Positions 6,751 through 28,775 of a stretch of DNA of 33,177 bases are shown here, piece after piece. The stretch spans positions 1-33,177 of the forward strand of contig MFKE01000019.1 in NCBI GenBank assembly GCA_001779455.1. Reading direction: 5' to 3'. The DNA comes from Candidatus Gottesmanbacteria bacterium RIFOXYB1_FULL_47_11. Lineage in GTDB: Bacteria; Patescibacteriota; Microgenomatia; UBA10105; UBA927. The notes under the pieces are model-generated. The model saw only the letters and a list, made by a program, of their open reading frames with translations. It made no database searches and was not told the origin of the DNA. The position numbers and the translations under genes are program-made. Position 1 is the first letter of the stretch. The number at the start of each line of letters is the position of its first letter.

Positions 6751-7029
6751 ATGCCGAGACCAAGAATACCCCGCTGTATGCGGTTTAAACCGGATGTTAG
6801 TTATTTTAAACCTCGAGGCATTCCCTTGAGTGAATTGGATGAGGTGGTTTTATTGCCCGATGAATTGGAGGCGCTGAAGCTGTATGAAGTTGATGGATTG
6901 GAACAGAAAAAAGCTGCCGAAAAAATGAAGATTTCCCAGCCTACATTTGCAAGAATTTTGGATAGTGCTAATAAAAAAATTGCTAATGCTATTATCAAGG
7001 GCAAGGCAATTCGCTTAGAAACAAAATAA
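6751..7029 (+). CDS. DUF134/UPF0251 family helix-turn-helix protein
   Basis: MPRPRIPRCMRFKPDVSYFKPRGIPLSELDEVVLLPDELEALKLYEVDGLEQKKAAEKMKISQPTFARILDSANKKIANAI is characteristic of the family. Confidence 0.88.
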   Translation: MPRPRIPRCMRFKPDVSYFKPRGIPLSELDEVVLLPDELEALKLYEVDGLEQKKAAEKMKISQPTFARILDSANKKIANAIIKGKAIRLETK

Positions 7030-7037
7030 CGGTAATA

Positions 7038-8135: not shown

Positions 8136-8139
8136 TCAT

Positions 8140-8877: not shown

Positions 8878-8901
8878 AAAAAATTTAGTATAATTTCCGA
8901 A

Positions 8902-9990
8902 ATGATAAAGACACTATTTACAATATTTATCTCCATTATATATTTTGTGTTTTTGACGACCCCGATTTACGCACAAAATGCAACGGCAAAAATTTATTTT
9001 TTCTATGGGATTGGATGCCCGCATTGCTCTATCGTTGAACAGTATTTTGAAAAGAAGGATCTATACGCCAAATATCCGATTGAAAAGAAAGAAATATATT
9101 TCGACAGAGACAATGCCGTTTTCTTTAACTCCACGCTTGATACCTTAGGTGTGCCGGGGGACGCCCGCGGCGTACCGATGGTTGTTATGGGAGATCAGGT
9201 TATTATCGGAGATAAGCCGATTGTCGACGGATTTATTTCCAAAGCAGATGTGTTTTTACAACGTTATTCCGGTCCACCGAAAGGCGAAAATCCAAAACAA
9301 CCGGATGTACAAAAGTCGAATTTAACCCTGGCGGCTGTTATTGCCGGGGCTCTTGTTGACGCTATAAACCCATGTGAGTTTGCGGTTCTTATCATCCTTA
9401 TGACCACGATTCTCGGAACCGGCAATGCAAAAAAAGCTTTTCGTACGGGGCTTGCCTTTTCTGCTTCCATATTTATTTCATATTTCCTCATGGGACTGGG
9501 TCTTTATAAAGCATTAAGCTTGGGGGCAATGTCGAGTTGGTTTTTTACACTTATCGCATGGATCGCAATTCTTTTGGGGCTGGCGAATCTCAAGGATTAC
9601 TTCTGGTATGGGAAAGGATTTCTCATGGAGGTGCCGCTATCATGGCGCCCACGGCTGAAAGCACTTATTCATTCGGTTACATCTCCCAAAGGCGCGTTTT
9701 TTATAGGGTTCTTAGTCAGTTTATTTCTACTTCCGTGTACCAGCGGGCCGTATATTGTCATTCTGGGCATGCTTGCCAAAAAAGTATTTGATGTTCAGGC
9801 AATAGTGTACCTATTGCTCTACAATTTTATTTTTATATCTCCCATGGTTCTTATATCGTGGGCCGTGTACAATGGGTTCAATCCTGCGAAAGCAGAAGAG
9901 ATTCGTCAAAAACGTCTTCGAACGCTTCATCTGATTGCCGGAGTTGTCATGATTCTTATGGGTATAGTGCTTTTGATGGGCTGGATTTAA
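8902..9990 (+). CDS. Secreted thioredoxin-like domain (GCPHC) fused to CcdA/DsbD-like transmembrane domain
   Basis: Signal peptide; KIYFFYGIGCPHCSIVEQYF; then DAINPCEFAVLIILMTTIL...FLVSLFLLPCTSGPYIVILGML. Confidence 0.85.
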   Translation: MIKTLFTIFISIIYFVFLTTPIYAQNATAKIYFFYGIGCPHCSIVEQYFEKKDLYAKYPIEKKEIYFDRDNAVFFNSTLDTLGVPGDARGVPMVVMGDQVIIGDKPIVDGFISKADVFLQRYSGPPKGENPKQPDVQKSNLTLAAVIAGALVDAINPCEFAVLIILMTTILGTGNAKKAFRTGLAFSASIFISYFLMGLGLYKALSLGAMSSWFFTLIAWIAILLGLANLKDYFWYGKGFLMEVPLSWRPRLKALIHSVTSPKGAFFIGFLVSLFLLPCTSGPYIVILGMLAKKVFDVQAIVYLLLYNFIFISPMVLISWAVYNGFNPAKAEEIRQKRLRTLHLIAGVVMILMGIVLLMGWI

Positions 9991-10068
9991 TACATGATCT
10001 GAAATTGTCCCCGTAAGCGAGCAAAATTATTTGGAGTATGACGTTCGGATTTTTGGTATACTACGCGT

Positions 10069-10815
10069 ATGAAACAATCAGAAGATATTAAAAAAATCAT
10101 TAAAAAATCTTATGGGGATATCGCTCAATCCTCAGGAGGCTGCGGATGCAGTAGTTGCGGATGCGATTCGAATCAGAGCGTCCAGAGACAATCCGGACAA
10201 ATGGGGTATTCACAGGACGAAATGAAACAAGCCCCTTCCGGTTCTAATTTGGGTCTGGGTTGCGGTAATCCCGTTGCTATTGCTTCATTAAAAGAGGGTG
10301 ACGTGGTTGTGGATTTGGGTTCGGGAGCCGGCTTTGATGCTTTTTTGGCCTCTTCCAAAGTCGGGAAAACAGGTAAAGTGATCGGCGTAGATATGACGGA
10401 TGAGATGCTTGAGAAAGCAAGAGAAAATGCCAAAAGGGGTAATTACAGCAATATTGAATTTCGAAAAGGAGATATTGAAGACCTGCCTATTGAAGACGGC
10501 TCAGCTGATGTGATTATCTCCAATTGTGTGATCAATCTTGCCCCCGACAAAAGAAAAGTATTTCAAGAAGCATATCGCGTACTTAAACCGGGCGGAAGGC
10601 TCATGGCATCCGATGTTGTTTTAATACAGCCATTACCGGAAGAATTGAAAAGAGACGAAGAGCTGTTGGTCGGTTGTGTCAGCGGAGCAATCCTGAAACA
10701 GGACTACCTGCGTCTTTTGGAAAAAGCAGGATTTACCCATACGACAATTCACAAAGAAACGCCCGCCTTTTTACCGGATTACGGATTAAGCATTACCTAT
10801 TCAGTAGTAAAGTAG
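10069..10815 (+). CDS. arsM: Arsenite S-adenosylmethionine methyltransferase (ArsM-like)
   Basis: VVDLGSGAGFDAFLASSKVGKTGKVIGVDMTDEMLEKARENA; ISNCVINLAPDKRKVFQEAYRVLKPGGR; LLVGCVSGAI; Cys-rich N-terminus GGCGCSSCGCDS. Confidence 0.85.
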   Translation: MKQSEDIKKIIKKSYGDIAQSSGGCGCSSCGCDSNQSVQRQSGQMGYSQDEMKQAPSGSNLGLGCGNPVAIASLKEGDVVVDLGSGAGFDAFLASSKVGKTGKVIGVDMTDEMLEKARENAKRGNYSNIEFRKGDIEDLPIEDGSADVIISNCVINLAPDKRKVFQEAYRVLKPGGRLMASDVVLIQPLPEELKRDEELLVGCVSGAILKQDYLRLLEKAGFTHTTIHKETPAFLPDYGLSITYSVVK

Positions 10816-10829
10816 AAGGTCCGAACTCT

Positions 10830-11228
10830 ATGTTTATTAAGCTATACATGATTGCGCTGTCGGTCTTTTTTGCCATTGATATGGTGTGGCTTGGGCTAGT
10901 GGCAAAGAATTTTTATTCCAAACAGATCGGATTTTTGATGAAAACAGATGTTAATTGGCTTGCCGCAGTTCTTTTTTATCTTCTTTTTATTGTCGGTGTT
11001 GTCGTATTTGTTATTATGCCGGCGGTCGGACAGAAATCCTGGGTACACGCGCTTGGGTACGGGGCTCTGTTTGGTTTAATTACCTATGCGACATACGATC
11101 TAACAAACCTTGCGACTGTTAAAAATTGGCCACTAGCCGTAACCGTTGTTGATTTGATCTGGGGCATGACACTTGCATCTTCTGTATCTGTCATAACCTA
11201 TTTTATTGCGAACAAACTCAGGCTATGA
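10830..11228 (+). CDS. DUF2177-like membrane protein
   Basis: [37 protein letters not shown]...[39 protein letters not shown]; in-frame ATG 10830 (the track ORF starts upstream inside arsM). Confidence 0.85.
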
Positions 11229-11995
11229 GTTATTACCCGCTTCTTGCACTCGTGCTTTTTGTATACATGAACTGCTGGTTTCTGATTTCTTTGGTTAAAA
11301 AAAGAAATGATGTTGCTGATATTGCCTGGGGTTTAGGATTTATCGTATTATCCTGGTCGGGATTATTGGTATCAGGTTTTTCTTTACGCGCCTTCATGGT
11401 AAATATCCTGGTGACTATTTGGGGAAGCCGGCTTGCATGGCATATCTATACGCGAAATCGGAATAAGAGAGAAGATTATCGGTATCTGGCATGGCGCAAC
11501 GAGTGGGGAAGATGGTTTTATATCCGCTCGTATCTGCAGGTATTCCTATTACAGGGGACATTCTTATTTTTAATTGTACAACCGGTTGTATATATCAATG
11601 CGTTTGGCGCCGCTCCGTTTCAAATTACTGACGTTGTCGGAGTAGCAGTATGGCTCATCGGGTTTTATTTTGAACATACGGGCGATCGTCAGTTAAAACA
11701 GTTTGTTTCAAACCCTTCCAATAAAGGGAAAATAATGGATCAGGGTTTATGGCGGTATTCCAGACACCCGAATTATTTCGGTGAAGTTGCCCAGTGGTGG
11801 GGGCTATTTTTTATAGCTCTATCTGTCCCGGGGGCAATATTTACCATTATCGGTCCGTTAACCATTACCTTTTTGATACTCTTTGTTTCTGGGGTACCTC
11901 TTTTGGAGAAGAAGTACGCCGGGAGAGCAGATTTTGAGGAGTATAAAAAGCGGACGAGTGTTTTTTTCCCTCTGCCTCCGAAGAAAATGCAGTAA
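11225..11995 (+). CDS. DUF1295 / steroid 5-alpha-reductase-like membrane protein
   Basis: [13 protein letters not shown]...[28 protein letters not shown] overlap with the upstream gene. Confidence 0.88.
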
Positions 11996-12001
11996 TAATC
12001 T

Positions 12002-12343
12002 ATGCGCATTTGGGATATTCATCCGAAATATTTGTGCCGGAAACATTTACTTGCTGAGCACAGGGAGCTTCATGGCCTTTGGAATATTTTAACCATACAC
12101 AAGGGGAAGGGAGGATATTCCCGTCATCCGGAAACAATCCGCTGGATCGGAAAAACCCTTGCTCTTTTCAACAGGCACGAGGCGCTTGTAAAGGAATTTA
12201 CCCGCCGGGGATATCAACATCTCACACCGCTAAACAAAAAATATGCCCATGGGGAAAATTATCAACGTGTCTACATCAATACGATTTCGGAACAAAAAAC
12301 AATGTTACAAGACAAACAATGTGACTGTTTATTGCATAGGTAA
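12002..12343 (+). CDS. Pyrimidine dimer DNA glycosylase / endonuclease V-like
   Basis: MRIWDIHPKYLCRKHLLAEHRELHGLWNIL...YSRHPETIRWIGKTLALFNRHEALVKEFTRRGYQHLTPL resembles the T4 DenV (Pyr_excise) family. Confidence 0.75.
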   Translation: MRIWDIHPKYLCRKHLLAEHRELHGLWNILTIHKGKGGYSRHPETIRWIGKTLALFNRHEALVKEFTRRGYQHLTPLNKKYAHGENYQRVYINTISEQKTMLQDKQCDCLLHR

Positions 12344-12362
12344 ATAATAATAAAATGCCTCG

Positions 12363-13304
12363 ATGAAATCTGTAAGAATTTTATTAATCAGCGGGGTTGC
12401 TTTAGTCGGCTTATATCTTCTGCTGAATCAGCTGGTAAAACTAGAAAGAGCCAATTCACATGTTATCAGCCCGCTCACGGACGCGACAGTCACTACTTCT
12501 ACCGTAATTCCGCCTGTTAAAGACAGAAGTCAGGCGAATTCAGAGCGGCTCAAAGATGTTGTAGATGGGGCTCTGGAGGGGGCAACGGGATCATACGGGA
12601 TATATATCAAAAATCTCAAAACCGGAGAATCGTATGTTTCCGGCGAACATAACGTATTTGATTCTGCGAGTTTGTATAAACTGTGGGTTATGGCGGTTGT
12701 CTACCAAAAAATCCAGGACGAGCAGTTTACGGAAGACCAGGTATTGCGTGAAGACGTGTTTGTGCTTAATCAAAAATTCGACATTGACCCGGAACTTGCT
12801 GAAAAAACCGAAGGCGTTATCACATTTTCCGTCCGCGAAGCACTGCGCCAGATGATTACCGTTTCCGATAATTATGCGGCACTCCTCCTTACGGAGAAGA
12901 TAGGATTATCATCTGTTGCAACTTTTTTAAAAGAGAATGACTTGACTGAGTCTGCCGTGGGTACGACAGGCGGCCCCCCGACATCGACACCGTACGACAT
13001 AGAGCGGTTTCTTGAAAAACTGTACCGGGAAGATGTAGCGAACCCGAAATATACGGCGGAGATGATCGATCTGTTAAAAAATCAGAAATTAAACAATGGC
13101 ATCCCCAAATATCTACCCGACGCTTCCAGCGTAGCTAATAAAACAGGGGAAATTGACCGGTTTAAGCATGACGCCGGAATTATATATACAGACAACGGTG
13201 ATTATAGTATCGTCGTGATGTCAGAAAGCGCCTACCCGCCGGGAGCGCAGGAAAGAATAGCGCGGGTTTCAAAAGCCGTCTTTGATTATTTTACCCATAA
13301 ATAG
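12363..13304 (+). CDS. Class A beta-lactamase-fold serine hydrolase, membrane anchored
   Basis: SLYK (SxxK), VSDNYAALLL (SDN), NKTGE (KTG); N-terminal TM. No recognisable omega-loop ExxLN. Confidence 0.85.
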   Translation: MKSVRILLISGVALVGLYLLLNQLVKLERANSHVISPLTDATVTTSTVIPPVKDRSQANSERLKDVVDGALEGATGSYGIYIKNLKTGESYVSGEHNVFDSASLYKLWVMAVVYQKIQDEQFTEDQVLREDVFVLNQKFDIDPELAEKTEGVITFSVREALRQMITVSDNYAALLLTEKIGLSSVATFLKENDLTESAVGTTGGPPTSTPYDIERFLEKLYREDVANPKYTAEMIDLLKNQKLNNGIPKYLPDASSVANKTGEIDRFKHDAGIIYTDNGDYSIVVMSESAYPPGAQERIARVSKAVFDYFTHK

Positions 13305-13376
13305 TAGGCATTACCACCTCGTGAAAGAAAATAGCCCCGTTGTCTGTATTACATGTAGATAGGAGGTGAAACAATT

Positions 13377-13751
13377 ATGAACAAAACATCTATACTTCTT
13401 GGACTGACAGCGCTGGTTATCGCAGGTGCAGTAATTGCTCCTCAGGCAGTTCTTGCCTACAGAGGCGATCCGGCAGTCAAAGGTCCGAACTATACAGAAG
13501 AACGTCATACAGCGATGGAAAAAGCATTTGAGAATAAAGACTATGCTGCATGGCAAAATCTGATGCAAGGTCGAGGTAGAGTGACACAAGTTGTCAACAA
13601 AGACAATTTCGCAAAGTTTGCTCAGGCTCATGAATTAGCCGAGCAGGGAAAAACCGATGAAGCAAATAAAATAAAAGCTGAACTCGGACTTGGTCTGCGC
13701 AATGGAACAGGAATGGGTCAGGGAATGGGATATGGTAGAACAAGCCGTTAA
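13377..13751 (+). CDS. Small secreted protein with Gly/Met-rich C-terminus
   Basis: Signal peptide MNKTSILLGLTALVIAGAVIAPQAVLA; C-terminal NGTGMGQGMGYGRTSR; strong SD AGGAGGTGA. Confidence 0.7.
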   Translation: MNKTSILLGLTALVIAGAVIAPQAVLAYRGDPAVKGPNYTEERHTAMEKAFENKDYAAWQNLMQGRGRVTQVVNKDNFAKFAQAHELAEQGKTDEANKIKAELGLGLRNGTGMGQGMGYGRTSR

Positions 13752-13775
13752 CCATCTTTGTACGAAAGGCTGATA

Positions 13776-13803
13776 CCTCACTTATATGACATGAGTGGGG
13801 TTT
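13776..13803 (+). terminator. Possible intrinsic terminator, weak T tract
   Basis: CCTCACTTAT-ATGAC-ATGAGTGGGG hairpin with GU pairs, followed by TTT. Confidence 0.35.
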
Positions 13804-13838
13804 CGGCATGATAAACAGGTATACTAAAGGCATATATC

Positions 13839-14387
13839 ATGAGAGATCTATCTACATTATCAGACGAAGAAGTTGTTGCTATTGTCCGTACAAAGGACAG
13901 GGACGTCTACGCAGAGATCATTAAGCGGTACCAGACCAAGCTTATGAGATATGCCGGGTATATCATGGGAGATGAACATAAAGGAGCAGATGTAGTACAG
14001 GAAGGATTTATCAAAGCATACGTGAATCTCAATGGGTTTGATACAAAAAAGAAATTCGGGAGCTGGATATACCGTATCGTGCACAATGAAGCAATGAATA
14101 TGCTGGGTAAACACAAAAGACAGGTGCCGATGGATGTCACACTTGAATTTGACAGCGGTATTAATTTGGAGGACGACTTTATTAAAAATGAGCTGGTTAG
14201 CCATGCTCACCACTGTCTTGAACAAATGCCCATACTGTACAAAGAACCGTTATCGCTTTTTTATCTGGAAGAAAAATCGTATGAAGAAATCAGTGATATA
14301 CTACGGATTCCCATCGGTACGGTCGGTACGCGTATCAACCGTGCCCGCGGAATCATGAAAAAACTATGTCAAAAACACATAACATAA
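13839..14387 (+). CDS. ECF-type RNA polymerase sigma factor
   Basis: GADVVQEGFIKAYVNLNGFDTKKKFGSWIYRIVHNEAMN; EKSYEEISDILRIPIGTVGTRINRARGIMKKL. Confidence 0.9.
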   Translation: MRDLSTLSDEEVVAIVRTKDRDVYAEIIKRYQTKLMRYAGYIMGDEHKGADVVQEGFIKAYVNLNGFDTKKKFGSWIYRIVHNEAMNMLGKHKRQVPMDVTLEFDSGINLEDDFIKNELVSHAHHCLEQMPILYKEPLSLFYLEEKSYEEISDILRIPIGTVGTRINRARGIMKKLCQKHIT

Positions 14388-14875
14388 CATCAACCAATTT
14401 CGAAAAAACCATAATGGCGAAAGTGAAATCTAATGAGATTTCGATGAAGCCACGGTGGTATTTTATCATGGGATCGCTGTTGACAATAGCAGGGTTAGTG
14501 GGCTTTAGTATCGGAACCATCTTCCTGACCAACGTCACGCTGTTTTTGATTCGCAGGCACGGACCCATGGGACAGTGGAGATTGCAGCAGCTATTGTCCA
14601 GTTTCCCGTTGTGGATACCGGTTCTTGCAATTTTTGGTATGGCGCTTGGAATATGGATGCTTCGAAAATATGACTTTTCTTACAAGAAAAACTTTTGGCT
14701 TATCATTCTCGGGTTTATCTTTTCCGTCATCCTTGCCGCTTTTGTGATTGACCAACTTGGTTTAAATGACATGTGGTCTCGTCAAGGTCCAATGAGACGT
14801 TTCTATCAGCAGATTGAAGGACAAGCGTTTCCAAGAGGACAAGGACAGGGAAGGGCGTTTGGTGTATACTACTAA
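14366..14875 (+). CDS. Polytopic membrane protein, candidate anti-sigma factor of the adjacent ECF sigma
   Basis: Overlaps the sigma gene by 22 bp; about 33 aa N-terminal cytoplasmic segment (NFEKTIMAKVKSNEISMKPRWYF) then multiple TMs; C-terminal GQAFPRGQGQGRAF. Confidence 0.6.
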   Translation: MSKTHNITSTNFEKTIMAKVKSNEISMKPRWYFIMGSLLTIAGLVGFSIGTIFLTNVTLFLIRRHGPMGQWRLQQLLSSFPLWIPVLAIFGMALGIWMLRKYDFSYKKNFWLIILGFIFSVILAAFVIDQLGLNDMWSRQGPMRRFYQQIEGQAFPRGQGQGRAFGVYY

Positions 14876-14891
14876 TTGGAGGTAAAAATAT

Positions 14892-15548
14892 ATGAAAAAA
14901 GCATCAGTTGTCATGTCGGTTATTACCATACTGGCGTTGCCGGGTATAATTTTTGCTCAGGGTCAAGGCGCACAAGGGCAGGGCACATCTACTCTGCAGG
15001 GATATCAGGTGCAAAACCAAAATCAGGTGATCACACAAAATCAAGGTGAAGACACACAGCTACAGGTAGCTACTCAGGAACAGGAAAGCCTTGGCGACGG
15101 ACAAGGAGAAGGATTACAAATCCGCAACCAAAACGCTATTGAAAATATGAGCACGGTCGCAGCCCAGGTGCAACAGCTGTTACAGGTGAGAACAACCGGT
15201 GGAATCGGGGAACAGGTTCGACAAATCGCTCAGGAACAGAATCAGGCTCAGACACAGATTCAGAATCAATTAAACAAACTCGAATCTAAAGGCAAAATGG
15301 CCAGATTTCTAAGCGGGACTGATTACGGCGCTGTTAAAAATCTGAAAGCACAGCTTGTACAAAATCAGGTAAGAATTGATCAGCTGACGGAGTTGCAGAA
15401 CCAGCTTGTCAATCAGGGAGATATCACGATGGTTCAGGAAACAATCCAGGCCCTGATTGCGGAAAACACATCCTTACAGGAACGGATTACCTCAGAAGAG
15501 GGGACCAAAAGCATGTTCGGGTGGCTGTTCAGATTCTTTGCCAGATAA
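14892..15548 (+). CDS. Secreted Gln-rich coiled-coil protein
   Basis: Signal peptide ending ALPGIIFAQ; very Gln/Asn-rich QGQGAQGQGTSTLQGYQVQNQNQVITQNQGEDTQLQ...; helical heptad-like middle; hydrophobic C-terminus MFGWLFRFFAR. Confidence 0.65.
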   Translation: MKKASVVMSVITILALPGIIFAQGQGAQGQGTSTLQGYQVQNQNQVITQNQGEDTQLQVATQEQESLGDGQGEGLQIRNQNAIENMSTVAAQVQQLLQVRTTGGIGEQVRQIAQEQNQAQTQIQNQLNKLESKGKMARFLSGTDYGAVKNLKAQLVQNQVRIDQLTELQNQLVNQGDITMVQETIQALIAENTSLQERITSEEGTKSMFGWLFRFFAR

Positions 15549-15549
15549 C

Positions 15550-15566
15550 CAAGAAGGTACTTCTTG
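15550..15566. repeat. Inverted repeat abutting the arsR -35
   Basis: CAAGAAG-GTA-CTTCTTG, perfect 7 bp arms, overlaps TTGACA (15564-15569). Confidence 0.55.
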
Positions 15567-15593
15567 ACAATATATTAGCATATGCTAATATAT
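15564..15593 (+). promoter_or_regulatory. arsR promoter with embedded 24 bp perfect palindrome (putative operator)
   Basis: TTGACA at 15564-15569; palindrome ATATATTAGCAT|ATGCTAATATAT at 15570-15593 fills the spacer and the -10. Confidence 0.75.
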
Positions 15594-15597
15594 ATAC

Positions 15598-15864
15598 ATG
15601 TCATGCAATATATATTCCGCGTTAGGGAATGAAGTCCGGGCGAAATTACTTCTTTGTCTTGCCCGAAAACCCAAAAACGTAACAGAGATGATCCATACGT
15701 GCGGCTTAGCTCAATCGGCGGTTTCCCAGCATTTGGCAAAATTAAAATCGGCAAAATTAGTAGAAACGAAAAAAGAAGGCAAAGAGATTTTGTATTCAAT
15801 TAAATATAAAAAAGCAGCGGAAATCAGCCGGTTGCTCCGGTTATTACAAAAGGAGGTTCTATGA
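15598..15864 (+). CDS. ArsR-family HTH transcriptional regulator
   Basis: ALGNEVRAKLLLCLARKPKNVTEMIHTCGLAQSAVSQHLAKLKSAKLVETKKEGKEILYSI. Confidence 0.92.
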   Translation: MSCNIYSALGNEVRAKLLLCLARKPKNVTEMIHTCGLAQSAVSQHLAKLKSAKLVETKKEGKEILYSIKYKKAAEISRLLRLLQKEVL

Positions 15865-16115
15865 ACTATGTAAAAGTTAAAGTGTATGCGACAACGACAT
15901 GCCCGTATTGCACCATGATAGCCGACTGGCTGACGGATAAAAAGGTTGCGTTTGAGAAAATTCTGGTTGATCAGGATCAGAAAGCAGCAATCGATATGGT
16001 CCGGCGGACCGGACAAATGGGTGTGCCGGTGACGGAAATAGTATTGAAAGACGGAAAATCGGAGTTTATCATCGGTTTTAATCAACCGCAACTGGCATAT
16101 CTGTTGGGCGTATAA
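15861..16115 (+). CDS. Glutaredoxin-like protein
   Basis: VYATTTCPYCTMIADWLTDKKVAFEKILVDQD...TGQMGVPVTEI; ATGA overlap with arsR. Confidence 0.9.
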   Translation: MNYVKVKVYATTTCPYCTMIADWLTDKKVAFEKILVDQDQKAAIDMVRRTGQMGVPVTEIVLKDGKSEFIIGFNQPQLAYLLGV

Positions 16116-16170
16116 AATTTATGAAAGAAATATGTCTTGATTACTATATAAATAGTATTATAATTAAATT

Positions 16171-16263
16171 ATGCAAAAACTACGGGGAAACAAAACGGTC
16201 CGTTTGGCCGTAATTATTATTTTGATCCTGGTCGTTTCCTACATGTTGTATTCAATGTGGTAA
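16171..16263 (+). CDS. 30 aa single-TM mini-protein (putative, below the ORF-track cutoff)
   Basis: MQKLRGNKTVRLAVIIILILVVSYMLYSMW*; preceded by TTGATT-N16-TATAAT-N6-ATG and ends 3 nt before the next gene. Confidence 0.5.
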   Translation: MQKLRGNKTVRLAVIIILILVVSYMLYSMW

Positions 16264-16266
16264 TCT

Positions 16267-16710
16267 ATGGCGATCCCGAAATTTAAACCGCTTGCAAATG
16301 CCGGTGAGGGCACGAAAAAAGTTGCCAAACCCATCCTCATGGTAATTATCGCAATTTTGCTGGGGGCCTTTGGGCTGGAGGCAACGAACAATGACTGGGA
16401 TATAGGCAAAATATTGACCGGTACTCCGGTATCTGAAGCCGAAATACTGCGGGATGAAAAGGGAAATCTGAAGCAGGACGCGGCAGGCAATTTTATTACC
16501 AGGATCATGCGTGATAAAGAGGGTAATATCGTAAAAGATAACTCATCCGGAGGAAAATATACGGATGAGTATAACTGCGATGATTTTACGACGCAGCCGG
16601 AGGCGCAGAAATTTTATGACAAGGCAGGCGGAGTGAGTCAGGATACGAACAGACTTGACGGGGATAAAGACGGTATCGCCTGTGAAAGCTTACCACAAGG
16701 CGCGCAATAA
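16267..16710 (+). CDS. Membrane-anchored excalibur-domain protein
   Basis: [42 protein letters not shown]. Confidence 0.85.
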
Positions 16711-16745
16711 CAATCTTTAAAATTTCATCTGTGATTTTTGCCGCC

Positions 16746-17081
16746 TCAGGAGAGGCGTGATACCATTTCATCTTCCAGCGAGTACCATTTCTGGGTTGTA
16801 TTTTCCAGGAAGCGGTAATGGAGTATATAAGCAATAAATAATACGATAAGAGGAGCGGCAATAATCAGAAGTCTCGGGTTTTGTGCAACTATGGTGATAA
16901 ATGACGCTATCGACATGACTAATCCGACAAAGATGGTAACCAGAAGGTGAATAAGCCGCTCGTGCTGAATGCGCGCAATCATGTTCCGGTGATGATCCAA
17001 TATCCTTCCCCAATCAGCGTTTGACTCTTTTTCTAAAAGTATTTTTCGAATAGCATCGTCATGTGTTTTGAACATATACAT
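16746..17081 (-). CDS. Two-TM hypothetical membrane protein
   Basis: 111 aa, central hydrophobic pair flanked by charged helices. Confidence 0.55.
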   Translation of the reverse strand: MYMFKTHDDAIRKILLEKESNADWGRILDHHRNMIARIQHERLIHLLVTIFVGLVMSIASFITIVAQNPRLLIIAAPLIVLFIAYILHYRFLENTTQKWYSLEDEMVSRLS

Positions 17082-17120
17082 ATGATAGCACTAGGAATTC
17101 CTTTCGCAGAAGGCAAGAGG

Positions 17121-18050
17121 TTAGTCACAGAACTGCTGCTTACATTTAGTTATCCAAAGTGTTTGCTGTGCAGGGGGTAAATTAAGGTCCGTTATTATAG
17201 TGTTGCATTGAGCTTCACATGTCTTCGGATTTTTGTTAATTTGATTACAAGCCGTGAGACAATTGGCCAATATTTTTACATTCTCCTGAAATGGGATACA
17301 TGATTGCGCGCACTCGAGTTTCGTTTGCCTTGGTGTATTTGTGGGCGCATTTGGGGTAATCGGAGGCGTAGGAGTGCTTGTTGTAGCTGGCGTGATAGTC
17401 CCCGTGACCTGGGTTACCCCGGTGATCGTCGCATTGTGTTTACCCGCAAGTGCGTTTCCCGTTGTCCCTTTGACTGTGACCGTGGAATCATTCGTAAATC
17501 TGATCATCGAGTCTCCTGCGGTTTTTACTTTGATACGGATGATAGCAACATTTGCCGTGCCATTAAACGGCGCTGTGATTGGAGTTGTTAGGATCGCAGT
17601 TATCTTCCCGTTATCGGTTGACGGCTCCTGTAGTGCATTCTGGAACTTTGGCCCTTTGGTAAATCGTACGATTTCTATGGCATTTTTATTGTATGTCATA
17701 TCCAAGTGTACGGAGGTAACTAATTTGGTGTTTGTATTTACGGATATAGCGATGTTTTTTTCCTGTCCGATTTCTACAGTATTGGTAGAGGGGAGGAGCG
17801 ATAATACCGGTCCGGTATTACTTGCCCTGGAGCGGATGTCCCCCTGTTGGCTGAGCGCGAACATGCTTGCAGCAAGGCCGCCAAGAAGTAAAAATCCCGC
17901 AATAATCATAAGAAGATTTTTGGTTTTTGGCTTGTGTGATGGAGTGTAATCGGGCCCAACAGGCTCCTGTGGAGTAGGCGGAATCCCAGAAGAAACTGGC
18001 GAATCGAGGTCATTTATTTTCGGAACAGTTGAGGCATCTACTTTATCCAT
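17121..18050 (-). CDS. Membrane-anchored cohesin-like domain protein with CX3C-rich C-terminus
   Basis: Pro-rich N-terminus, TM, GPVLSLLPSTNTVEIGQEKNIAISVNTNTKLVTSVHLDMTYNKNAIEIV...NVAIIRIKVKTAGDSMIRF, PT-rich linker, then CAQSC...CLTAC...CEAQC...CKQQFC. Confidence 0.75.
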   Translation of the reverse strand: MDKVDASTVPKINDLDSPVSSGIPPTPQEPVGPDYTPSHKPKTKNLLMIIAGFLLLGGLAASMFALSQQGDIRSRASNTGPVLSLLPSTNTVEIGQEKNIAISVNTNTKLVTSVHLDMTYNKNAIEIVRFTKGPKFQNALQEPSTDNGKITAILTTPITAPFNGTANVAIIRIKVKTAGDSMIRFTNDSTVTVKGTTGNALAGKHNATITGVTQVTGTITPATTSTPTPPITPNAPTNTPRQTKLECAQSCIPFQENVKILANCLTACNQINKNPKTCEAQCNTIITDLNLPPAQQTLWITKCKQQFCD

Positions 18051-18099
18051 GTGTCTATACTATTTGTATATAGTTTTTGTATGTATGTCAAGGCGGGGT

Positions 18100-18290
18100 C
18101 TACACCCCAAAGTTGCCAACCAGCGCATTGTAATCAAACTCATCCACTTTGCCATTTTTTATAATATCTGCCTTGATCCATCCGGGAGAACCGGTTTTCC
18201 CAAAGTCGCCAACCAGCACGTTGTAATCAAACTCATTCACCTGGTTGTCCGGTGTATCTCCTTCGTCCGTCAGATCCGCAATGTTGCCGG
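18100..18290 (-). repeat. Dockerin-like coding repeat, copy 1
   Basis: Highly similar to copies 2 and 3 at nucleotide level (e.g. accagcgcattgtaatcaaactcatccactttgcc). Confidence 0.85.
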
Positions 18291-19212
18291 CGGGAGAAGA
18301 AGTAGGGATAGGGGTAGTGGTAGGAGAGCCAACGGTGAAATATTGGTTAAGGTAAGCCATAATGGCTGTTTGGACAGTGGGTTCTAATAAAACTTGATAG
18401 ATACCGAAATGATCTCGTCCGGGCAGCATGATAAGCCGGGCAGGGATGTTGACTTCTTGAAGCATTTCATACATCCATTCTGATTGAACAGGTAAAGCTG
18501 TGATGTCCGCATCCCCATGTACAAGCAAGAAAGGGCCGTCGTCGCTTGAAATGTGGGTAACAGCAGAAAATTCATTCACATAATTTTGATTTCCTCCCAG
18601 AGAGTAAGAGGTAGGGTTAAAGCTGCCGAGTAAGTTTGGGTCGGTAAAATCATACGCTCCGGAAACAACGATAGTCCCCTGGGGTTTACTTGAGTAGGAT
18701 GGAAGGCCATACGCAGGATTTCTCGTATCATTTCTTGTGCCGACAACGGAAGCCAAGCTAGCACCGGCGGATACGCCGGCGACGATAATACGGTTAGGAT
18801 CAATGCGGTACGTCTCTGCATGTTGTTTCAGCCAGCGGATAACATATTGCGCGTCATCCAGCAGGTCCGGATACTTATGGTCGGGGGCAAGTCGATAGTC
18901 AGCAGAAGCGACATTATACCCGTGTGGGGTGACAAGCTCGCAAAGAGACGGAAATCCATCTTTTCTGGATCCTGCCCGCAGTCCGCCACCGTGAAAAAAT
19001 GCTATCGTTGGGCGTTGCATATTAGAATTATTTTTGGGTAAGCAGATATCAATTTTGAGCTCAAGGTTTTCTATGGTTTTATAGGTTAGGTCGAGTCTGG
19101 TGTTGTAGTTCGTTTCGGCGGCATAGGTTGATCGGGCGGCAATGAGACAAAGTATGACGACCGCATTAATTATCACAATATTTTTTATCTGATACCGATT
19201 TATATTGGACAT
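18100..19212 (-). CDS. Secreted alpha/beta hydrolase (esterase-like) with C-terminal dockerin-like domain
   Basis: FFHGGGLRAGSR, GVSAGAS nucleophile elbow, HGDADITALP, GRDHFG; C-terminus ADLTDEGDTPDNQVNEFDYNVLVGDFGKTGSPGWIKADIIKNGKVDEFDYNALVGNFGV. Confidence 0.85.
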   Translation of the reverse strand: MSNINRYQIKNIVIINAVVILCLIAARSTYAAETNYNTRLDLTYKTIENLELKIDICLPKNNSNMQRPTIAFFHGGGLRAGSRKDGFPSLCELVTPHGYNVASADYRLAPDHKYPDLLDDAQYVIRWLKQHAETYRIDPNRIIVAGVSAGASLASVVGTRNDTRNPAYGLPSYSSKPQGTIVVSGAYDFTDPNLLGSFNPTSYSLGGNQNYVNEFSAVTHISSDDGPFLLVHGDADITALPVQSEWMYEMLQEVNIPARLIMLPGRDHFGIYQVLLEPTVQTAIMAYLNQYFTVGSPTTTPIPTSSPAGNIADLTDEGDTPDNQVNEFDYNVLVGDFGKTGSPGWIKADIIKNGKVDEFDYNALVGNFGV

Positions 19213-19229
19213 AAGAACGTTATTTAGTG

Positions 19230-19425
19230 TTATTTTCCTATCTCTCCTACCAGCGCATTGTAATCAAACTCATCCACTTTGCCGTTTTTAATAATATCTG
19301 CCTTGATCCACCCGGGAGTACCGGTTTTCCCAAAGTCGCCAACCAACACATTATAGTCATACTCATTCACTTGGTTGCCCGGTGTATCTCCTTCGTTTGT
19401 GAGGTCGGCAGGGTTGCCGGTGGGA
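19230..19425 (-). repeat. Dockerin-like coding repeat, copy 2
   Basis: Same block: accagcgcattgtaatcaaactcatccactttgccgtttttaataatatctgccttgatccacccggga. Confidence 0.85.
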
Positions 19426-20618
19426 GGGGGAGACGGGGTGACGGAGACGGAATAATTGGCAAGGATATAGTTATAGATATCTCCTTTTGTACCATCCGGT
19501 TTAATCATCCAAAAGCCATGGCAATCCGCGGGTTTTGTGGGGGGTTTTACTGAACACGCCTGGTCAAATAGGGTCCAAAGGTTTAGTCTGACCACCTTCC
19601 AGTCCATGGCAGCCTTGATTGCAGCTTCAGCGCTCTCAATGTTGACATCAGTGCGGTCTGTCATTTCCGGGTAGCCGATTTCTCCGATCATGACATTTTT
19701 TCCGCCGGGGAAATCCGGGTGATCCGGTGCTTTTTCGGCAATATAATTAAGGGCTTTTATCATGCTTTGCCGTGCCTGATCTGTAGACATAGGACCATAG
19801 GTTTCGTATGCACTGTAGGCAACAATATCGCACTCTGCGTATGGAATCACATCATTGGCAGAAGATGTTTTACCCCGCATTGCCCGGGATAGAACGCGGG
19901 CGATTTCGCAGGTGAGATATACTTTCATTCCACTTTCCGGGACTTCGGTTTTGGCGTCCCGGATTGCGCGGGCATACATATTTAAGAATTCAATTGCGTG
20001 CTCAACGTTACTTTGGGGAACATCAGAGTCATCACAGTCATTACCGGCTTGGCCTAAAGCGCAGCCGCCTTGAACTAACCGGTTATCCAGTTCGTTAACC
20101 GGAGCAATATAGAACGTTTTCCCTGACCCGCGGAATCGTGTCAACAGGTATTTGATGGCGTCTTTGACCTCAGTGTATGTTGAATTTATCTCTGCCTGTG
20201 TGTATGGAGTGGTTTTTATATGAATTGATGATTGCTGTATTGAAGTTTTTTTTACTGCTTCAATATACAGCGTAAAATACTTAATCGGTTTCGTCAGCAC
20301 CGCCTGAAATTGAGGGAGTTGCATCATGCTTTTCATGTCGGATACATTGAGTTTACCGTCTTGGCAGTATTGATCAGCCTGGTGGTAGCATCCCCCGCCC
20401 GTAGAACACAAACTCCCCGGGATCATGATCAGTTCAAGGCCGGCAAAGCCCAGTTCTCTGGTTTTTTGTGCACCATACTGCATAAAATCGCCTTGCGCGG
20501 TACGGTCGGGGTATTCTCCGCATGAGTTTGTTACTCCAAGACGTTCGTCGATGGCAGCAGCATATACTTTGGAGGTTAACAAGGGAATCAATACAAGGAA
20601 GAGAAATATTTTTTTCAT
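19230..20618 (-). CDS. Secreted TIM-barrel glycosidase-like protein with C-terminal dockerin-like domain
   Basis: Signal peptide; FYIAPVNELDNR (NE) and NVMIGEIGYPE (E) are clan GH-A-like; C-terminal dockerin-like tandem motif. Confidence 0.7.
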   Translation of the reverse strand: MKKIFLFLVLIPLLTSKVYAAAIDERLGVTNSCGEYPDRTAQGDFMQYGAQKTRELGFAGLELIMIPGSLCSTGGGCYHQADQYCQDGKLNVSDMKSMMQLPQFQAVLTKPIKYFTLYIEAVKKTSIQQSSIHIKTTPYTQAEINSTYTEVKDAIKYLLTRFRGSGKTFYIAPVNELDNRLVQGGCALGQAGNDCDDSDVPQSNVEHAIEFLNMYARAIRDAKTEVPESGMKVYLTCEIARVLSRAMRGKTSSANDVIPYAECDIVAYSAYETYGPMSTDQARQSMIKALNYIAEKAPDHPDFPGGKNVMIGEIGYPEMTDRTDVNIESAEAAIKAAMDWKVVRLNLWTLFDQACSVKPPTKPADCHGFWMIKPDGTKGDIYNYILANYSVSVTPSPPPTGNPADLTNEGDTPGNQVNEYDYNVLVGDFGKTGTPGWIKADIIKNGKVDEFDYNALVGEIGK

Positions 20619-20635
20619 TATATCTACTCTATCAC

Positions 20636-20830
20636 TTATCTATAAAAATCTCCTACCAGCGCATTATAATCAAACTCATCTACTTTGCCGTTTTTAATAA
20701 TATCCGCCTTGATCCATCCGGGAGCACCGATTTTTCCAAAGTGTTCTGCTAGGACATTGTAATCAAATTCATTCACCTGGTTACCTGGCATATCTCCTTC
20801 ATCTGTCAGATCCGCAATGTTGCCGGTGGA
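20636..20830 (-). repeat. Dockerin-like coding repeat, copy 3
   Basis: Same block: accagcgcattataatcaaactcatctactttgccgtttttaataatatccgccttgatccatccggga. Confidence 0.85.
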
Positions 20831-22072
20831 AGGGGGAGACGGGGATATGGCATAGTTTTCCAGGATATAGTTATAGATGCGGCTGTTTGTGTTATCCGGT
20901 TTCTTCATCCAGAACCCGACACAGTCGGCGCTTGTAGCGGGGAATACCCCGCCTGCAACTTGTCGAGTGCAATTGTCATCGTGTAGTGTCCAAAACTGGA
21001 TGAATGGCACACCCCAGTTAAGTGCCTGATTAACCGCATTGGTAAATAAGGAAAACCGATCACTCGGCTCAATATTTTCCCTGATACCGAATTGACTTAA
21101 AAAGACGTTTTTCCCATTTGGGAAATCTGGATGGTTAGGCGCCTTGGAAGCAATGTAATTGAGCGCGTTGGTCATCAGATTTTGTCGCTCTGTTGTTGAT
21201 TTTAGGAATGTTTCAAATGCGGAATATGCAATCAAATCACAGTGGGTATATGGGATTACTTGGTCGATAGCTCCTTGTATTTTTGGATTACTTAATGACT
21301 TTTGAACAACATGATTGATCTCACATGCGTGGTAAACATGTACGCCTTGCACGGGATTTTCAGCAACCGCGGTATGTATTGCTTCAGAAATAGCGTTGAG
21401 ATACGCTATTGCATTGGCAACCGGGACCGGTTTTCCTTCCAGATTGAAACAGCTAAGTTTTGCTCCCTCAACAACTGGTTTACAATTCATATTTTTCATG
21501 AGTCGATAATCCAGTTCACTGGGGGCAATGAGAATGAATGATTTATTAGTGCCCTTGTATTTTCGTAGTAAGTAGGTGGCAAAGGAATGATAATCTTCCT
21601 TTGTAGCGGCGAGTTCATCTTCCGTGAGGGCATCAAAATCTCCAATTTGTGACTGGTTTGCCGACTTCTGTGGATTGAGGGAATCAGTAAATATGAAAAA
21701 ATTTCGAAATGGTTTGGCAAAAAGAGCGATAAATTCGGGTTCTTTGGCCAAATCTGCTAGTGTGGTGGAGCGGGGTCGTTCACGCGTATCTTCACAATAG
21801 TCTGTGGTTTGGTAGAGTCCGAGTGGATGATGCGGTTTTTTTATGCAGAGATTCTGCATCATCATGACTGTTATGTTGCGAAATCCAAGATTATAGGCGC
21901 GGTTGGCGCCCCAGTTTAAAAAATCATTGTTATCCGTCCTATCGGGATACGCGCCTCCCACATGGGCAACTCCGATTCGCGGATCCAGTTCAGGCGCATT
22001 AGCAGCAGAGGTGGAAGAAGGTGTTCCAAAGAGTGATGCAGTCATTATTACCAGCGCAAATAGCACCCGCAT
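20636..22072 (-). CDS. Paralogue of 19230-20618: secreted TIM-barrel-like protein with dockerin-like domain
   Basis: Shared PDRT..DF..WGA, YSAFETF, APNHPDFPNGKNV, same C-terminal domain. Start at MRVLFALVIMTASLFG (22072) or 22087; the track extension to 22231 overlaps queA. Confidence 0.7.
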   Translation of the reverse strand: MRVLFALVIMTASLFGTPSSTSAANAPELDPRIGVAHVGGAYPDRTDNNDFLNWGANRAYNLGFRNITVMMMQNLCIKKPHHPLGLYQTTDYCEDTRERPRSTTLADLAKEPEFIALFAKPFRNFFIFTDSLNPQKSANQSQIGDFDALTEDELAATKEDYHSFATYLLRKYKGTNKSFILIAPSELDYRLMKNMNCKPVVEGAKLSCFNLEGKPVPVANAIAYLNAISEAIHTAVAENPVQGVHVYHACEINHVVQKSLSNPKIQGAIDQVIPYTHCDLIAYSAFETFLKSTTERQNLMTNALNYIASKAPNHPDFPNGKNVFLSQFGIRENIEPSDRFSLFTNAVNQALNWGVPFIQFWTLHDDNCTRQVAGGVFPATSADCVGFWMKKPDNTNSRIYNYILENYAISPSPPSTGNIADLTDEGDMPGNQVNEFDYNVLAEHFGKIGAPGWIKADIIKNGKVDEFDYNALVGDFYR

Positions 22073-25524: not shown

Positions 25525-27210
25525 ATGGTCCTGTCCGACAAAGAGCTGCAAGCGCTTGTCACCAATAGCGGAATTGCTGATCCGCTTCGGTTATCTACCG
25601 CAATTAACTTCGCTCAGACGGCAAATGTGCCTCTGGATGCCGCACTTGTGGAGAAGGGCGTCCTCACCGATGAGCAGCTCGGAGCGCTCGTATCCTCGTA
25701 TTATCACGTACCGTTTATTGTGTTGTCAAAAATTTCCATCCCCGAAGACGTTTTCCATATTATTCCGGAAAAAATTGCCAAAAAGCAGAAAGCCATCGCA
25801 TTCGCCCGTACCGGTGCCGGTATCAACGTCGCAATTTTGGACCCCACCAATTCCCAGATTATTGAATTGGTTGCCAAAAAAACAGGGCAGCGGGTGAACA
25901 TGTACTATGCAACGGGGCGCGATATCGAAAACACCCTGCAGGTATACAAAAAAGTGTTGCAGAAGACTATCGACATTCTCCTGAAAGAAGACATCAAGAA
26001 AGCAACCACCGCAGTATATGATGATCTGCCGATTGCCAAAATTGTCGATGTCCTTATAGACGCCGCATATCAGGATAAAGCATCCGATATCCACATAGAA
26101 CCCGAGGAACACAACTCTCTTATCCGTTTCCGCATAGACGGCGTCCTCCACGAAGTATTACGGGTACCCAAAGTGCTTCATGACCGTATTATCACCCGTA
26201 TCAAAGTATTATCGGGCCTGCGGACCGATGAGCATATGAGCGCGCAGGATGGGAAAATGCGTATGGCGCTTGAGGAGGAAAATCTGGATATCCGTGTTTC
26301 CATCATCCCGATTGCGGAGGGAGAAAAAGCAGTACTCAGACTTCTGTCCTCAAGAAGCCGCGAGTATACCCTTGCTGATTTGGGTATGGCAGAGAAAGAC
26401 CTTGCGAGAGTAGAGGCAGCATATAACAAATCGTACGGTATGATTCTGTCCACAGGTCCGACCGGGTCAGGTAAAACAACGACGATTTATGCAATACTCA
26501 AGATTCTCAATACGCGGGAAAAAAATATAACGACCATTGAGGACCCGGTTGAATACCGGATCCGCGGCGCCAATCAGGTGCAGGTGAATGCCAAAACAAA
26601 TCTGACATTTGCCAACGGACTCCGTAGCATTCTCCGGCAGGACCCCAATATTATTTTTGTCGGAGAAATCCGCGATTCGGAAACTGCCGGTATTGCCGTG
26701 AACGCTGCTCTTACCGGCCATTTAGTGTTATCGACGCTTCACACCAATGATGCGGCAACAGCAATCCCGCGGCTTACTGATATGAAAGTGGAACCGTTTC
26801 TTGTCGCATCAACAGTCAACATCATAATTGCCCAGCGCCTGGTGCGTAAAATCTGTGACATGTGTAAAACGTCGATGACGGCAACAACGGATGAACTTAA
26901 GAAACATCTGCCGGAGGATGCAATCCGGAAGCATTTTGGAGACAAAGCAGAAATTACCCTTTATAAGGGAAAGGGTTGTAAAATCTGTCATAACACCGGC
27001 TACAGCGGGCGGCTCGGCGTATTTGAGGTGCTGGAAATTACCAAGGATATCCGTAAACTCATTTCCGAGCGGGGGGATTCGGACGTGATTAATCAAAAAG
27101 CAAGGGAAGAGGGAATGACCACCATGCTTGATGACGGGCTGGATAAGGTTCAGCGTGGTATGACGACCATAGACGAAGTCGTACGTGTGACGAAGGTGGA
27201 ATCATTATAG
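25525..27210 (+). CDS. pilB: Type IV pilus assembly/T2SS ATPase PilB/GspE
   Basis: GPTGSGKTTTIYAIL, IEDPVEYRIRGANQVQVN, GLRSILRQDPNIIFVGEIRDSETAGIAVNAALTGHLVLSTLHTNDA, CxxC pairs. Confidence 0.95.
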   Translation: MVLSDKELQALVTNSGIADPLRLSTAINFAQTANVPLDAALVEKGVLTDEQLGALVSSYYHVPFIVLSKISIPEDVFHIIPEKIAKKQKAIAFARTGAGINVAILDPTNSQIIELVAKKTGQRVNMYYATGRDIENTLQVYKKVLQKTIDILLKEDIKKATTAVYDDLPIAKIVDVLIDAAYQDKASDIHIEPEEHNSLIRFRIDGVLHEVLRVPKVLHDRIITRIKVLSGLRTDEHMSAQDGKMRMALEEENLDIRVSIIPIAEGEKAVLRLLSSRSREYTLADLGMAEKDLARVEAAYNKSYGMILSTGPTGSGKTTTIYAILKILNTREKNITTIEDPVEYRIRGANQVQVNAKTNLTFANGLRSILRQDPNIIFVGEIRDSETAGIAVNAALTGHLVLSTLHTNDAATAIPRLTDMKVEPFLVASTVNIIIAQRLVRKICDMCKTSMTATTDELKKHLPEDAIRKHFGDKAEITLYKGKGCKICHNTGYSGRLGVFEVLEITKDIRKLISERGDSDVINQKAREEGMTTMLDDGLDKVQRGMTTIDEVVRVTKVESL

Positions 27211-27222
27211 TCAACAACAGGT

Positions 27223-28275
27223 ATGTCTCAGCAACAGATTGCACTCAGTAATAGCGAAAAAATTGCCCTTATAGGGAGTCTGGCAACCATGCTTTCGGCG
27301 GGGATACCGATTCTTGAAGTGGTTAACTCACTTCTGGAAGATGCCAAAGGAGCACAACTAAAAATATTAGAATCACTGCGGGAGGATTTGATGCAGGGAA
27401 AACACATATATGTGACGCTTTCCAAATTCCCGCGTGTGTTTGATAAGGTTACCGTAAGCGTCGTCAAGGCATCGGAAGAAGCCGGGACACTGGATGTAAC
27501 CCTCAAAGATCTCAAACGCACTATTCAAAAAGATATTGAATTCTCCGACCGGGTCCGGTCTGCCATGATATACCCGCTTTTTATCATGGTGGTATTTGTC
27601 GGGGTGCTCTTAATGATTCTCGTTGTTGTTGTCCCCAAAATATCCCAGGTTTTCTCGCGGCTGACGGTCGAATTACCTCTCCCGACGCGTATCCTCATCT
27701 TCCTTTCCGATCTATTGGTAAAAAATACCGTTGTATTTCTCATCGGTTTGGGCCTTGTTGTGTTAGGATTCATCACATTGTATCGAAGGAAAAAAGGCGC
27801 GTTGATGGATATTGTCTATTCACTGCCGATTATTTCCAAGCTTATTCAGGAAATAGATATCACCCGTTTTTCCCGAAGCTTACACCTTTTGCTTTCGTCA
27901 GGACTTTCAATAACTGCCGCGCTTGAACTGACGAGTGACATGGTTATAAAACGCAAAACGGCAGATATTATCCGCAGATCGCGGGAAATGGTATTTGCCG
28001 GTAAAAAATTATCGGAAGGGTTCCGCGCTTCCAAGGGGTATATACCGTCACTGATGATTAAACTCATGGAGGCGGGGGAAAAAACGGGTACACTTGATAA
28101 ATCCATGCAGGATATTTCCGAATATTATGATTATGAAGTGACCAATACGTTAAAAACCATCACCGCGCTTTTGGAGCCCATCCTTTTGGTTGTTGTAGGA
28201 ATTGCTGTCGGCGGTATGATGCTCGCTATTATCGCGCCGGTCTATGGACTCATCAGTCAGGTCGGGCGGCATTAA
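27223..28275 (+). CDS. pilC: Type II secretion F/PilC inner membrane platform protein
   Basis: LATMLSAGIPILEVV, GTLDVTLKDLKRTIQKD, LLLSSGLSITAALE, MKLMEAGEKTGTLDKSMQDISEYYDYEV-type motifs. Confidence 0.95.
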   Translation: MSQQQIALSNSEKIALIGSLATMLSAGIPILEVVNSLLEDAKGAQLKILESLREDLMQGKHIYVTLSKFPRVFDKVTVSVVKASEEAGTLDVTLKDLKRTIQKDIEFSDRVRSAMIYPLFIMVVFVGVLLMILVVVVPKISQVFSRLTVELPLPTRILIFLSDLLVKNTVVFLIGLGLVVLGFITLYRRKKGALMDIVYSLPIISKLIQEIDITRFSRSLHLLLSSGLSITAALELTSDMVIKRKTADIIRRSREMVFAGKKLSEGFRASKGYIPSLMIKLMEAGEKTGTLDKSMQDISEYYDYEVTNTLKTITALLEPILLVVVGIAVGGMMLAIIAPVYGLISQVGRH

Positions 28276-28276
28276 C

Positions 28277-28771
28277 ATGAACAAAAGCCAGCTTGCCGAC
28301 AGGCAGGGATTTACCATTATTGAAATAATCGTCGTACTTGGCATCCTGGCTACGTTATTGAGTATCGGCTATGTACGGTTTACCGATATTGCACGCCGGG
28401 CACCGCTTTCGGCGACCGTCGAGACGGTGATTGCGGATCTGCGGGGTCAACAAACGAAGGCCATGAGCGGGTATGCCGGTGGCGGGTCTGCAGCCGATGA
28501 CTACGGCGTTTATTTTGATACAAACAGTTACACGCTTTTTAAAGGACCGGTATATTCGGCGCTGGACAGCACAAATGCAAAAACCCTGCTTCCTGACTAT
28601 ATTACATGTAGTTCGGTTCTACCTGATTCCTCAGTAGTGTTTACGAAAGGGGACGGTGAGGTATTAAACTATTCTACAAGCGGGAACACAATCACGCTTA
28701 CCCAGACTCTTTCCGGCGAACAAAAAACGATTACTATCAACCGTTATGGTGCGGTTTTGTCAGTAGAGTGA
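28277..28771 (+). CDS. Prepilin-type N-terminal cleavage/methylation protein
   Basis: RQGFTIIEIIVVLGILATLLSIG; in-frame ATG 28277. Confidence 0.9.
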   Translation: MNKSQLADRQGFTIIEIIVVLGILATLLSIGYVRFTDIARRAPLSATVETVIADLRGQQTKAMSGYAGGGSAADDYGVYFDTNSYTLFKGPVYSALDSTNAKTLLPDYITCSSVLPDSSVVFTKGDGEVLNYSTSGNTITLTQTLSGEQKTITINRYGAVLSVE

Positions 28772-28775
28772 ATGT

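Follow-up and report, generated by a model that had tools for sequence, protein, structure and literature searches.

In a 33,177-nucleotide stretch of DNA from Candidatus Gottesmanbacteria bacterium RIFOXYB1_FULL_47_11 (contig MFKE01000019.1, positions 1 to 33,177 of the forward strand; contig C19 of the assembly), hereafter called the window, four consecutive minus-strand genes between positions 17121 and 22072 probably encode a minimal, non-cellulosomal cohesin–dockerin system for the display of proteins on the cell surface. Three of the genes encode secreted proteins with closely similar dockerin-like C-terminal tags. The fourth encodes a protein with one predicted transmembrane (TM) helix and one cohesin domain, which would serve as the receptor for the tags. 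Both the tags and the cohesin are divergent, and we infer that they bind each other.

Organization of the operon

The assembly comprises 927 kb in 31 contigs and is 88% complete. The four genes of the putative operon lie head to tail on the minus strand at 20636–22072, 19230–20618, 18100–19212, and 17121–18050. They are separated, in that order, by 17, 17, and 49 bp, a spacing typical of one operon, and none of the four reading frames is interrupted. The first gene encodes a TIM-barrel protein of 478 residues counted from ATG (TIM-barrel protein 2), the second its paralogue of 462 residues, which resembles clan GH-A glycoside hydrolases (TIM-barrel protein 1), and the third an α/β-hydrolase esterase of 370 residues (BD-FAE/Abhydrolase_3). 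Each of these three proteins has an N-terminal hydrophobic signal and a catalytic-type domain, which a short Pro/Thr/Ser linker joins to a C-terminal tag of ~60 residues. The fourth gene encodes the cohesin protein (309 residues), which is composed of an N-terminal tail, a TM helix, the cohesin domain, a Pro/Thr linker, and a Cys-rich, predicted helical C-terminus.

A preliminary description, made from the sequence of the window, had read these genes as three consecutive secreted proteins ending in tandem F-hand-like motifs, followed on the same strand by a TM-anchored protein with a cohesin-like domain. The secreted proteins are borne out at the coordinates above, and the identity of the anchored protein is supported by Pfam, by a profile model built without the window, and by a predicted fold (see below). 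The motifs quoted at the time, NQVNEFDYNVLVGDFG...ADIIKNGKVDEFDYNALVGNFG, are indeed the C-terminal end of the esterase.

The cohesin protein

The anchored domain is, by family and predicted fold, a genuine cohesin. PF00963 is the sole credible Pfam family for this protein, with 16.1 bits (E 0.013) for the whole protein and 20.3 bits (E 6.8e-4) for the domain alone. Because this match is weak on its own, we built a cohesin model exclusively from PF00963 hits above the cut-off in other genomes of the class, iterated it, and then searched it against the present genome. The resulting model finds the window protein with 64.1 bits (E 1.5e-18). In addition, a profile of 15 cohesins of the class, the window's included, retrieves almost exclusively solved cohesins from the PDB (best E 2.6e-11). 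Above E 0.05, the exceptions are 7urp and 5nrk/5nrm; their names are unclear, and the Foldseek listing describes 5nrk/5nrm as a cohesin complex.

The fold predicted by AlphaFold2 from the single sequence, with no relatives supplied, is a jelly-roll β-sandwich with a predicted local distance difference test score (pLDDT) of about 70–83 in the core. When the model is compared with the PDB by Foldseek, ranks 1–33 are all occupied by cohesin or cohesin–dockerin entries (best E 5e-8). The PF00963 match and these fold matches rule out an unrelated Ig-like fold, one of the outcomes that the preliminary description had named as fatal to its proposal. A phmmer search of the whole protein against PDB sequences gives no match, and no relatives of the cohesin are found among viral contigs.

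The N-terminal tail preceding the TM helix is hydrophilic and 45 residues long. The helix itself (residues 46–64; 17859–17915, minus strand) is assigned by hydropathy and would hold the protein in the cytoplasmic membrane. It is followed by a QQxDxR motif, which the alignment places in both cohesin proteins of the genome. The cohesin domain spans residues 89–197 (17460–17786, minus strand) according to the profile model, the predicted β-sandwich, and Foldseek. The nearest relative outside the genome comes from G117, a genome of the same family; the two proteins share 35% identity over about 206 residues, and the relative scores 36.8 bits, above the PF00963 cut-off. The TM helix of this orthologue is likewise late (residues 47–65). 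The Cys-rich C-terminal module (17124–17309, minus strand) contains four CxxxC/CxxxxC motifs (CAQSC, CLTAC, CEAQC, and CKQQFC). Another relative (G224; L124, 7309–7941) encodes a distant Cys-rich match that has a single N-terminal helix and no cohesin.

The dockerin-like tags

As delimited by profile search, the tags occupy 18103–18285 (residues 310–370 of the esterase), 19233–19415 (TIM-barrel protein 1), and 20639–20821 (TIM-barrel protein 2), all on the minus strand. The three tags are 80–88% identical. Between the esterase and the TIM-barrel proteins the similarity ends sharply at the tag, the catalytic domains being unrelated. A search of the genome finds exactly three copies, all in this operon, and 51 further genomes of the class contain related tags. 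The tandem F-hand repeats NQVNEFDYNVLVGDFG and KNGKVDEFDYNALVGNFG lie at the C-termini and align over the full length of a local dockerin model. Moreover, the tag profile retrieves canonical dockerins in relatives, for example DLNNDGKVDIFDYNILISNFGKTGSPGWIPADINKDGKVDIFDYNILVGEF in G054 (E 3e-22), the loops of which are canonical. Through such intermediates, the tags are linked to canonical dockerins, to which profile similarity indicates that they are homologous.

In dockerins, the calcium ligands are located at loop positions 1, 3, 5, and 12 (PMC8063739). Loop 2 of the tags reads D1, Ile3, N5, and D12, and this degenerate form is shared by all three. Among 122 loops of twelve residues in relatives, 111 have Asn or Asp at position 3. 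Loop 1 has 17 residues, five of them extra (D-L-T-(5 extra)-P-x-N-Q-V-N-E-F-D), and in one tag Tyr replaces Phe. A loop 1 of the same length and pattern, DITGEEGIPDGVVDLFD, is found in a cohesin protein of G244, a genome of the same genus. The isoleucine and the insertion had both been pointed out before and are confirmed here. Since the insertion recurs in all three tags and, at the same length, in the same-genus protein, we reject a sequencing artefact, and the insertion looks like a variant of the lineage. Because the calcium ligand positions are not all occupied as in the canonical module, we call the tags dockerin-like rather than canonical dockerins.

Between the three tags, the nonsynonymous divergence (dN) is 0.06–0.12 and the synonymous divergence (dS) 0.36–1.0, with dN/dS of about 0.08–0.23, indicating that purifying selection acts on the degenerate loops.

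Pairing of dockerins and cohesins across the class

The class survey covered 289 genomes, searched with PF00404 for dockerins and with PF00963 for cohesins. PF00404 matches are present in 194 genomes, PF00963 matches in 204, and both in 160 (Fisher p 5e-10, an estimate that ignores the shared ancestry of the genomes). Gene neighbourhoods were examined at 22 loci, the best tag locus in each of the 22 other genomes that ranked highest, with the tag as the sole criterion of choice. In 16 of the 22, a separate cohesin gene lies at most 51 bp from the best tag gene, on the same strand in 14 (chance about 2–4%; the binomial estimate likewise ignores shared ancestry). In the remaining six, the cohesin is within the same protein (two genomes), 2.5 kb away (one), or absent from the fetched region (three). 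The co-occurrence and the adjacent cohesin genes indicate that the tag is not a universal sorting signal lacking a cohesin, a possibility raised in the preliminary description.

The gene maps reveal a recurrent kit, consisting of cohesins with an N-terminal TM helix, cohesins with TM helices at both termini, proteins that combine a cohesin with a dockerin, and secreted cargo bearing a dockerin at a terminus. Most cohesin proteins in these loci carry one cohesin; proteins with two are rare (for example L069, 4272–5318, and L040). Half dockerins are also present in the class. The dockerin-bearing cargo includes GH39-, GH42-, and GH79-like enzymes, a subtilase, M4- and M64-like peptidases, and a laminin-G protein. 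As read from these maps, the system is a theme of the whole class and not a peculiarity of the present genome, and it draws on anchors, cohesin–dockerin adaptors, and diverse cargo. G117 has no PF00404 match; there, a 3' fragment of a dockerin (TNGKVDIFDYNQLVANFGK, followed by a stop; L059, 8191–8247) lies directly upstream of the orthologous cohesin gene.

One locus of the class (L058 in G058, 90–19157) combines more than ten dockerin-tailed secreted genes and two cohesin genes in one 20-kb stretch, and would be a far larger display locus.

A second cohesin locus

In the present genome, PF00963 finds one further cohesin protein, with a single cohesin, on contig C6 (L062 in G000; 43.1 bits). 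The preliminary description had stated that there is no full scaffoldin, and this holds for the assembled sequence: in the 88%-complete genome, PF00963 finds no multi-cohesin protein. The C6 locus (5059–7439) consists of HrcA, a cohesin protein of ~350 residues with TM helices at both ends, and a GH39-like enzyme, and has homologues in other genomes (L108–L121). The GH39-like enzyme of such loci has ~467 residues and an N-terminal helix; in the present genome, its gene runs off the contig. The HrcA/cohesin/GH39 arrangement is also found in genomes without any dockerin match. As cohesin-like domains can thus be kept without a nearby dockerin, a cohesin-like domain alone is no proof of a dockerin partner in this lineage. 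The case for the window therefore rests on adjacency and on the class-wide pairing.

Enzymes carrying the tags

The protein encoded by 18100–19212 is a BD-FAE/α/β-hydrolase (Pfam E 2e-33) with the motifs HGGG, GVSAG, and RDH. The TIM-barrel proteins are 36% identical over the catalytic domain, as paralogues. The predicted structure of TIM-barrel protein 1 (19230–20618; predicted template modelling score, pTM, 0.68; low-confidence tail) contains eight strands. Clan GH-A enzymes, including GH5, GH10, and GH39, make up most of its best matches in the PDB. E176, after strand 4, is the candidate acid/base, and E313, in strand 7, the candidate nucleophile, which is the arrangement of clan GH-A. In TIM-barrel protein 2 (20636–22072), Gln occupies the strand-7 nucleophile site, and the clan GH-A arrangement is lost. 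This substitution suggests a non-catalytic binding subunit. The catalytic residues are assigned by position, and TIM-barrel protein 2 is a probable pseudo-enzyme kept under a dockerin-like tag. The Acidobacteriota relatives described below keep, like TIM-barrel protein 1, the nucleophile Glu at this site.

The TIM-barrel family is rare. Besides each other, the two proteins have two weak matches among the 289 genomes of the class, and an alignment search finds only two relatives (L094 and L095), 26–27% identical and encoded by metagenome-assembled genomes of Acidobacteriota. The near-absence from the class, together with the Acidobacteriota origin of the nearest named relatives, suggests horizontal acquisition. 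A phmmer search of TIM-barrel protein 1 against PDB sequences gives no match, and Pfam assigns none of the three tagged proteins to a cellulase family or a carbohydrate-binding module.

Genomic context

In the same window, open reading frames at 25525–32737 read as a type IV pilus/type II secretion-like cluster, with a GspE/PilB-like ATPase, a PilC-like protein, and several pilin-like proteins. An Rfam search of the window gives no match, and in NCBIfam no family reaches its cut-off. bL9 is absent in 56 of 59 genomes of the class and uL30 in all 59; the present genome lacks both, which fits its placement in the Microgenomates (Microgenomatia, Patescibacteria).

A model for scaffold-free display and its alternatives

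We propose that the esterase, the GH-A-like glycosidase, and its nucleophile-less paralogue are secreted and would dock, through the C-terminal double F-hand module, onto a single-cohesin receptor that its one N-terminal helix would anchor in the cytoplasmic membrane. The paralogue without the presumed nucleophile may serve only to bind the substrate. Each receptor would take one tagged enzyme at a time, possibly with the help of calcium, and a coat retained at the surface would form without a multi-cohesin scaffoldin. The small surface complex for enzyme display suggested in the preliminary description is thus supported by the cohesin fold and the class-wide pairing, with the binding itself putative. 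A full cellulosome is rejected, as the genome has no detected scaffoldin and no cellulase set, and only three proteins are tagged.

Several observations weigh against this model. PF00404 gives the tag 13.1 bits, below its cut-off of 22.9, and the calcium loops are degenerate and depart from the ligand pattern of PF00404 dockerins. The cohesin domain alone, with its 20.3 bits, falls under the 24.1-bit cut-off of PF00963. Across the class, PF00404 occurs without PF00963 in 34 genomes and PF00963 without PF00404 in 44. In most genomes of the family, the homologue of the second cohesin stands beside a GH39-like enzyme, and in the relatives with a complete gene this enzyme has no dockerin. In addition, neighbouring dockerin/cohesin pairs lack charge complementarity (24 loci, Spearman -0.19, p 0.38).

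Alternatively, the tags could be real dockerins with the double-anchored C6 cohesin as their main receptor, the neighbouring cohesin being secondary or having another ligand. The C6 protein has the better PF00963 score (43.1 bits), and its N- and C-terminal TM helices are the classic anchor layout. However, the C6 locus is conserved across the family, including genomes without a dockerin match, whereas the window cohesin is co-directional with a tagged gene and 49 bp from it, which is the arrangement of most tag loci; we regard the C6 protein as quite unlikely to be the main receptor. A somewhat lower probability still is given to the view that the tags are stand-alone EF-hand-like modules for stability or sorting, the cohesin-like protein binding a host or glycan ligand and adjacency reflecting shared secretion only. 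The degenerate calcium loops, the cohesin-like domains without dockerin neighbours in genomes of the same family, and the half dockerins of the class would all be consistent with it. Yet the adjacency in 16 of 22 genomes, the co-occurrence in genomes, and the adaptors with both modules are better explained by a mating pair than by generic secretion.

The Ile at loop position 3, the Gln at the nucleophile site of 20636–22072, and the dockerin remnant that precedes the orthologous cohesin gene in G117 could instead reflect the erosion of a former cohesin–dockerin display locus. However, the three tags share one degenerate form of loop 2 and are under strong purifying selection (dN/dS about 0.1), the four frames are intact, and the esterase and one glycosidase retain their active-site motifs, leaving decay the least probable of these explanations. 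If the N-terminal helix of the receptor were a cleaved signal peptide, enzyme–cohesin pairs would be released as soluble dimers. Small cohesins with an N-terminal helix alone are common in the class, and Ala/Ser follow the helix; against cleavage, the helix begins at residue 46, past a hydrophilic tail of 45 residues, which is atypical of a signal peptide, and the helix of the same-family orthologue is also late (47–65). We consider release about as improbable as the C6 receptor.

Scaffold-free display on a membrane-held receptor thus remains the preferred model. It can be extended further: the long loop 1 and the calcium ligand missing from loop 2 may mark a co-diverged pair with calcium-independent or one-sided binding, and scaffold-free display would then be general in Microgenomatia for hydrolases, proteases, and a catalytically inactive glycosidase-like subunit. 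This extension is speculative and, taken as a whole, rather unlikely.

If the pair binds, it would offer candidate-phylum bacteria with genomes of about 1 Mb a cheap modular route to surface-attached enzymes. It would also explain why cohesins and dockerins are present in most genomes of the class despite one, rarely two, cohesins per protein. Furthermore, it would be a naturally degenerate, possibly metal-altered cohesin–dockerin pair, useful in protein engineering.

Comparison with known systems

Non-cellulosomal cohesin and dockerin modules have been described (Peer et al. 2009, as cited in PMC9012536). As in those cases, represented by the Clostridium perfringens cohesin (2jh2) and an Archaeoglobus cohesin (2xdh), both among the top fold matches, the modules of the window are single. 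Unlike them, three tagged proteins and one anchored receptor are combined in one operon, and loop 1 of the tags carries an insertion, while their loop 2 lacks ligand 3.

In anaerobic methanotrophic (ANME) archaea, dockerin/cohesin pairs have been proposed to fix functional proteins to the cell exterior in a non-cellulosomal manner (PMC9012536). The scaffoldin-like proteins of ANME reach five cohesins (PMC9012536), whereas none such is found in the present genome. In a cultivated Saccharibacterium, the dockerin-domain protein SEML1_0315 has been reported to be essential (PMC10633639).

The related loci resemble the clostridial anchoring and monovalent adaptor scaffoldins (PMC11557425) in having both cohesins with a TM anchor and adaptors with a cohesin and a dockerin. 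Unlike in clostridial cellulosomes, no primary multi-cohesin scaffoldin is found in the present genome, and the cargo of the class adds proteases and lectin-like proteins to glycosidases.

Within the Microgenomates, cohesin and dockerin genes are reported to be expressed in Ca. Shapirobacterales and have been read as cellulosomes (PMC9123182), and such genes have been noted in Ca. Roizmanbacterium (Geesink et al. 2020, as cited in PMC9123182). In the literature covered, which leaves out most subscription journals, we found neither the scaffold-free operon layout nor this degenerate pair described for candidate-phylum bacteria. Like the Shapirobacterales and Roizmanbacterium components, the present locus contains genes with cohesin and dockerin domains, and all belong to one supergroup. 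Where domain hits were called cellulosomes in those cases, the loci analysed here mostly encode one cohesin per protein and in a few cases two, and scaffold-free display fits the present genome better. Cohesin and dockerin genes in Microgenomates are therefore already known, and the new aspect is their putative arrangement in a scaffold-free operon with a degenerate pair.

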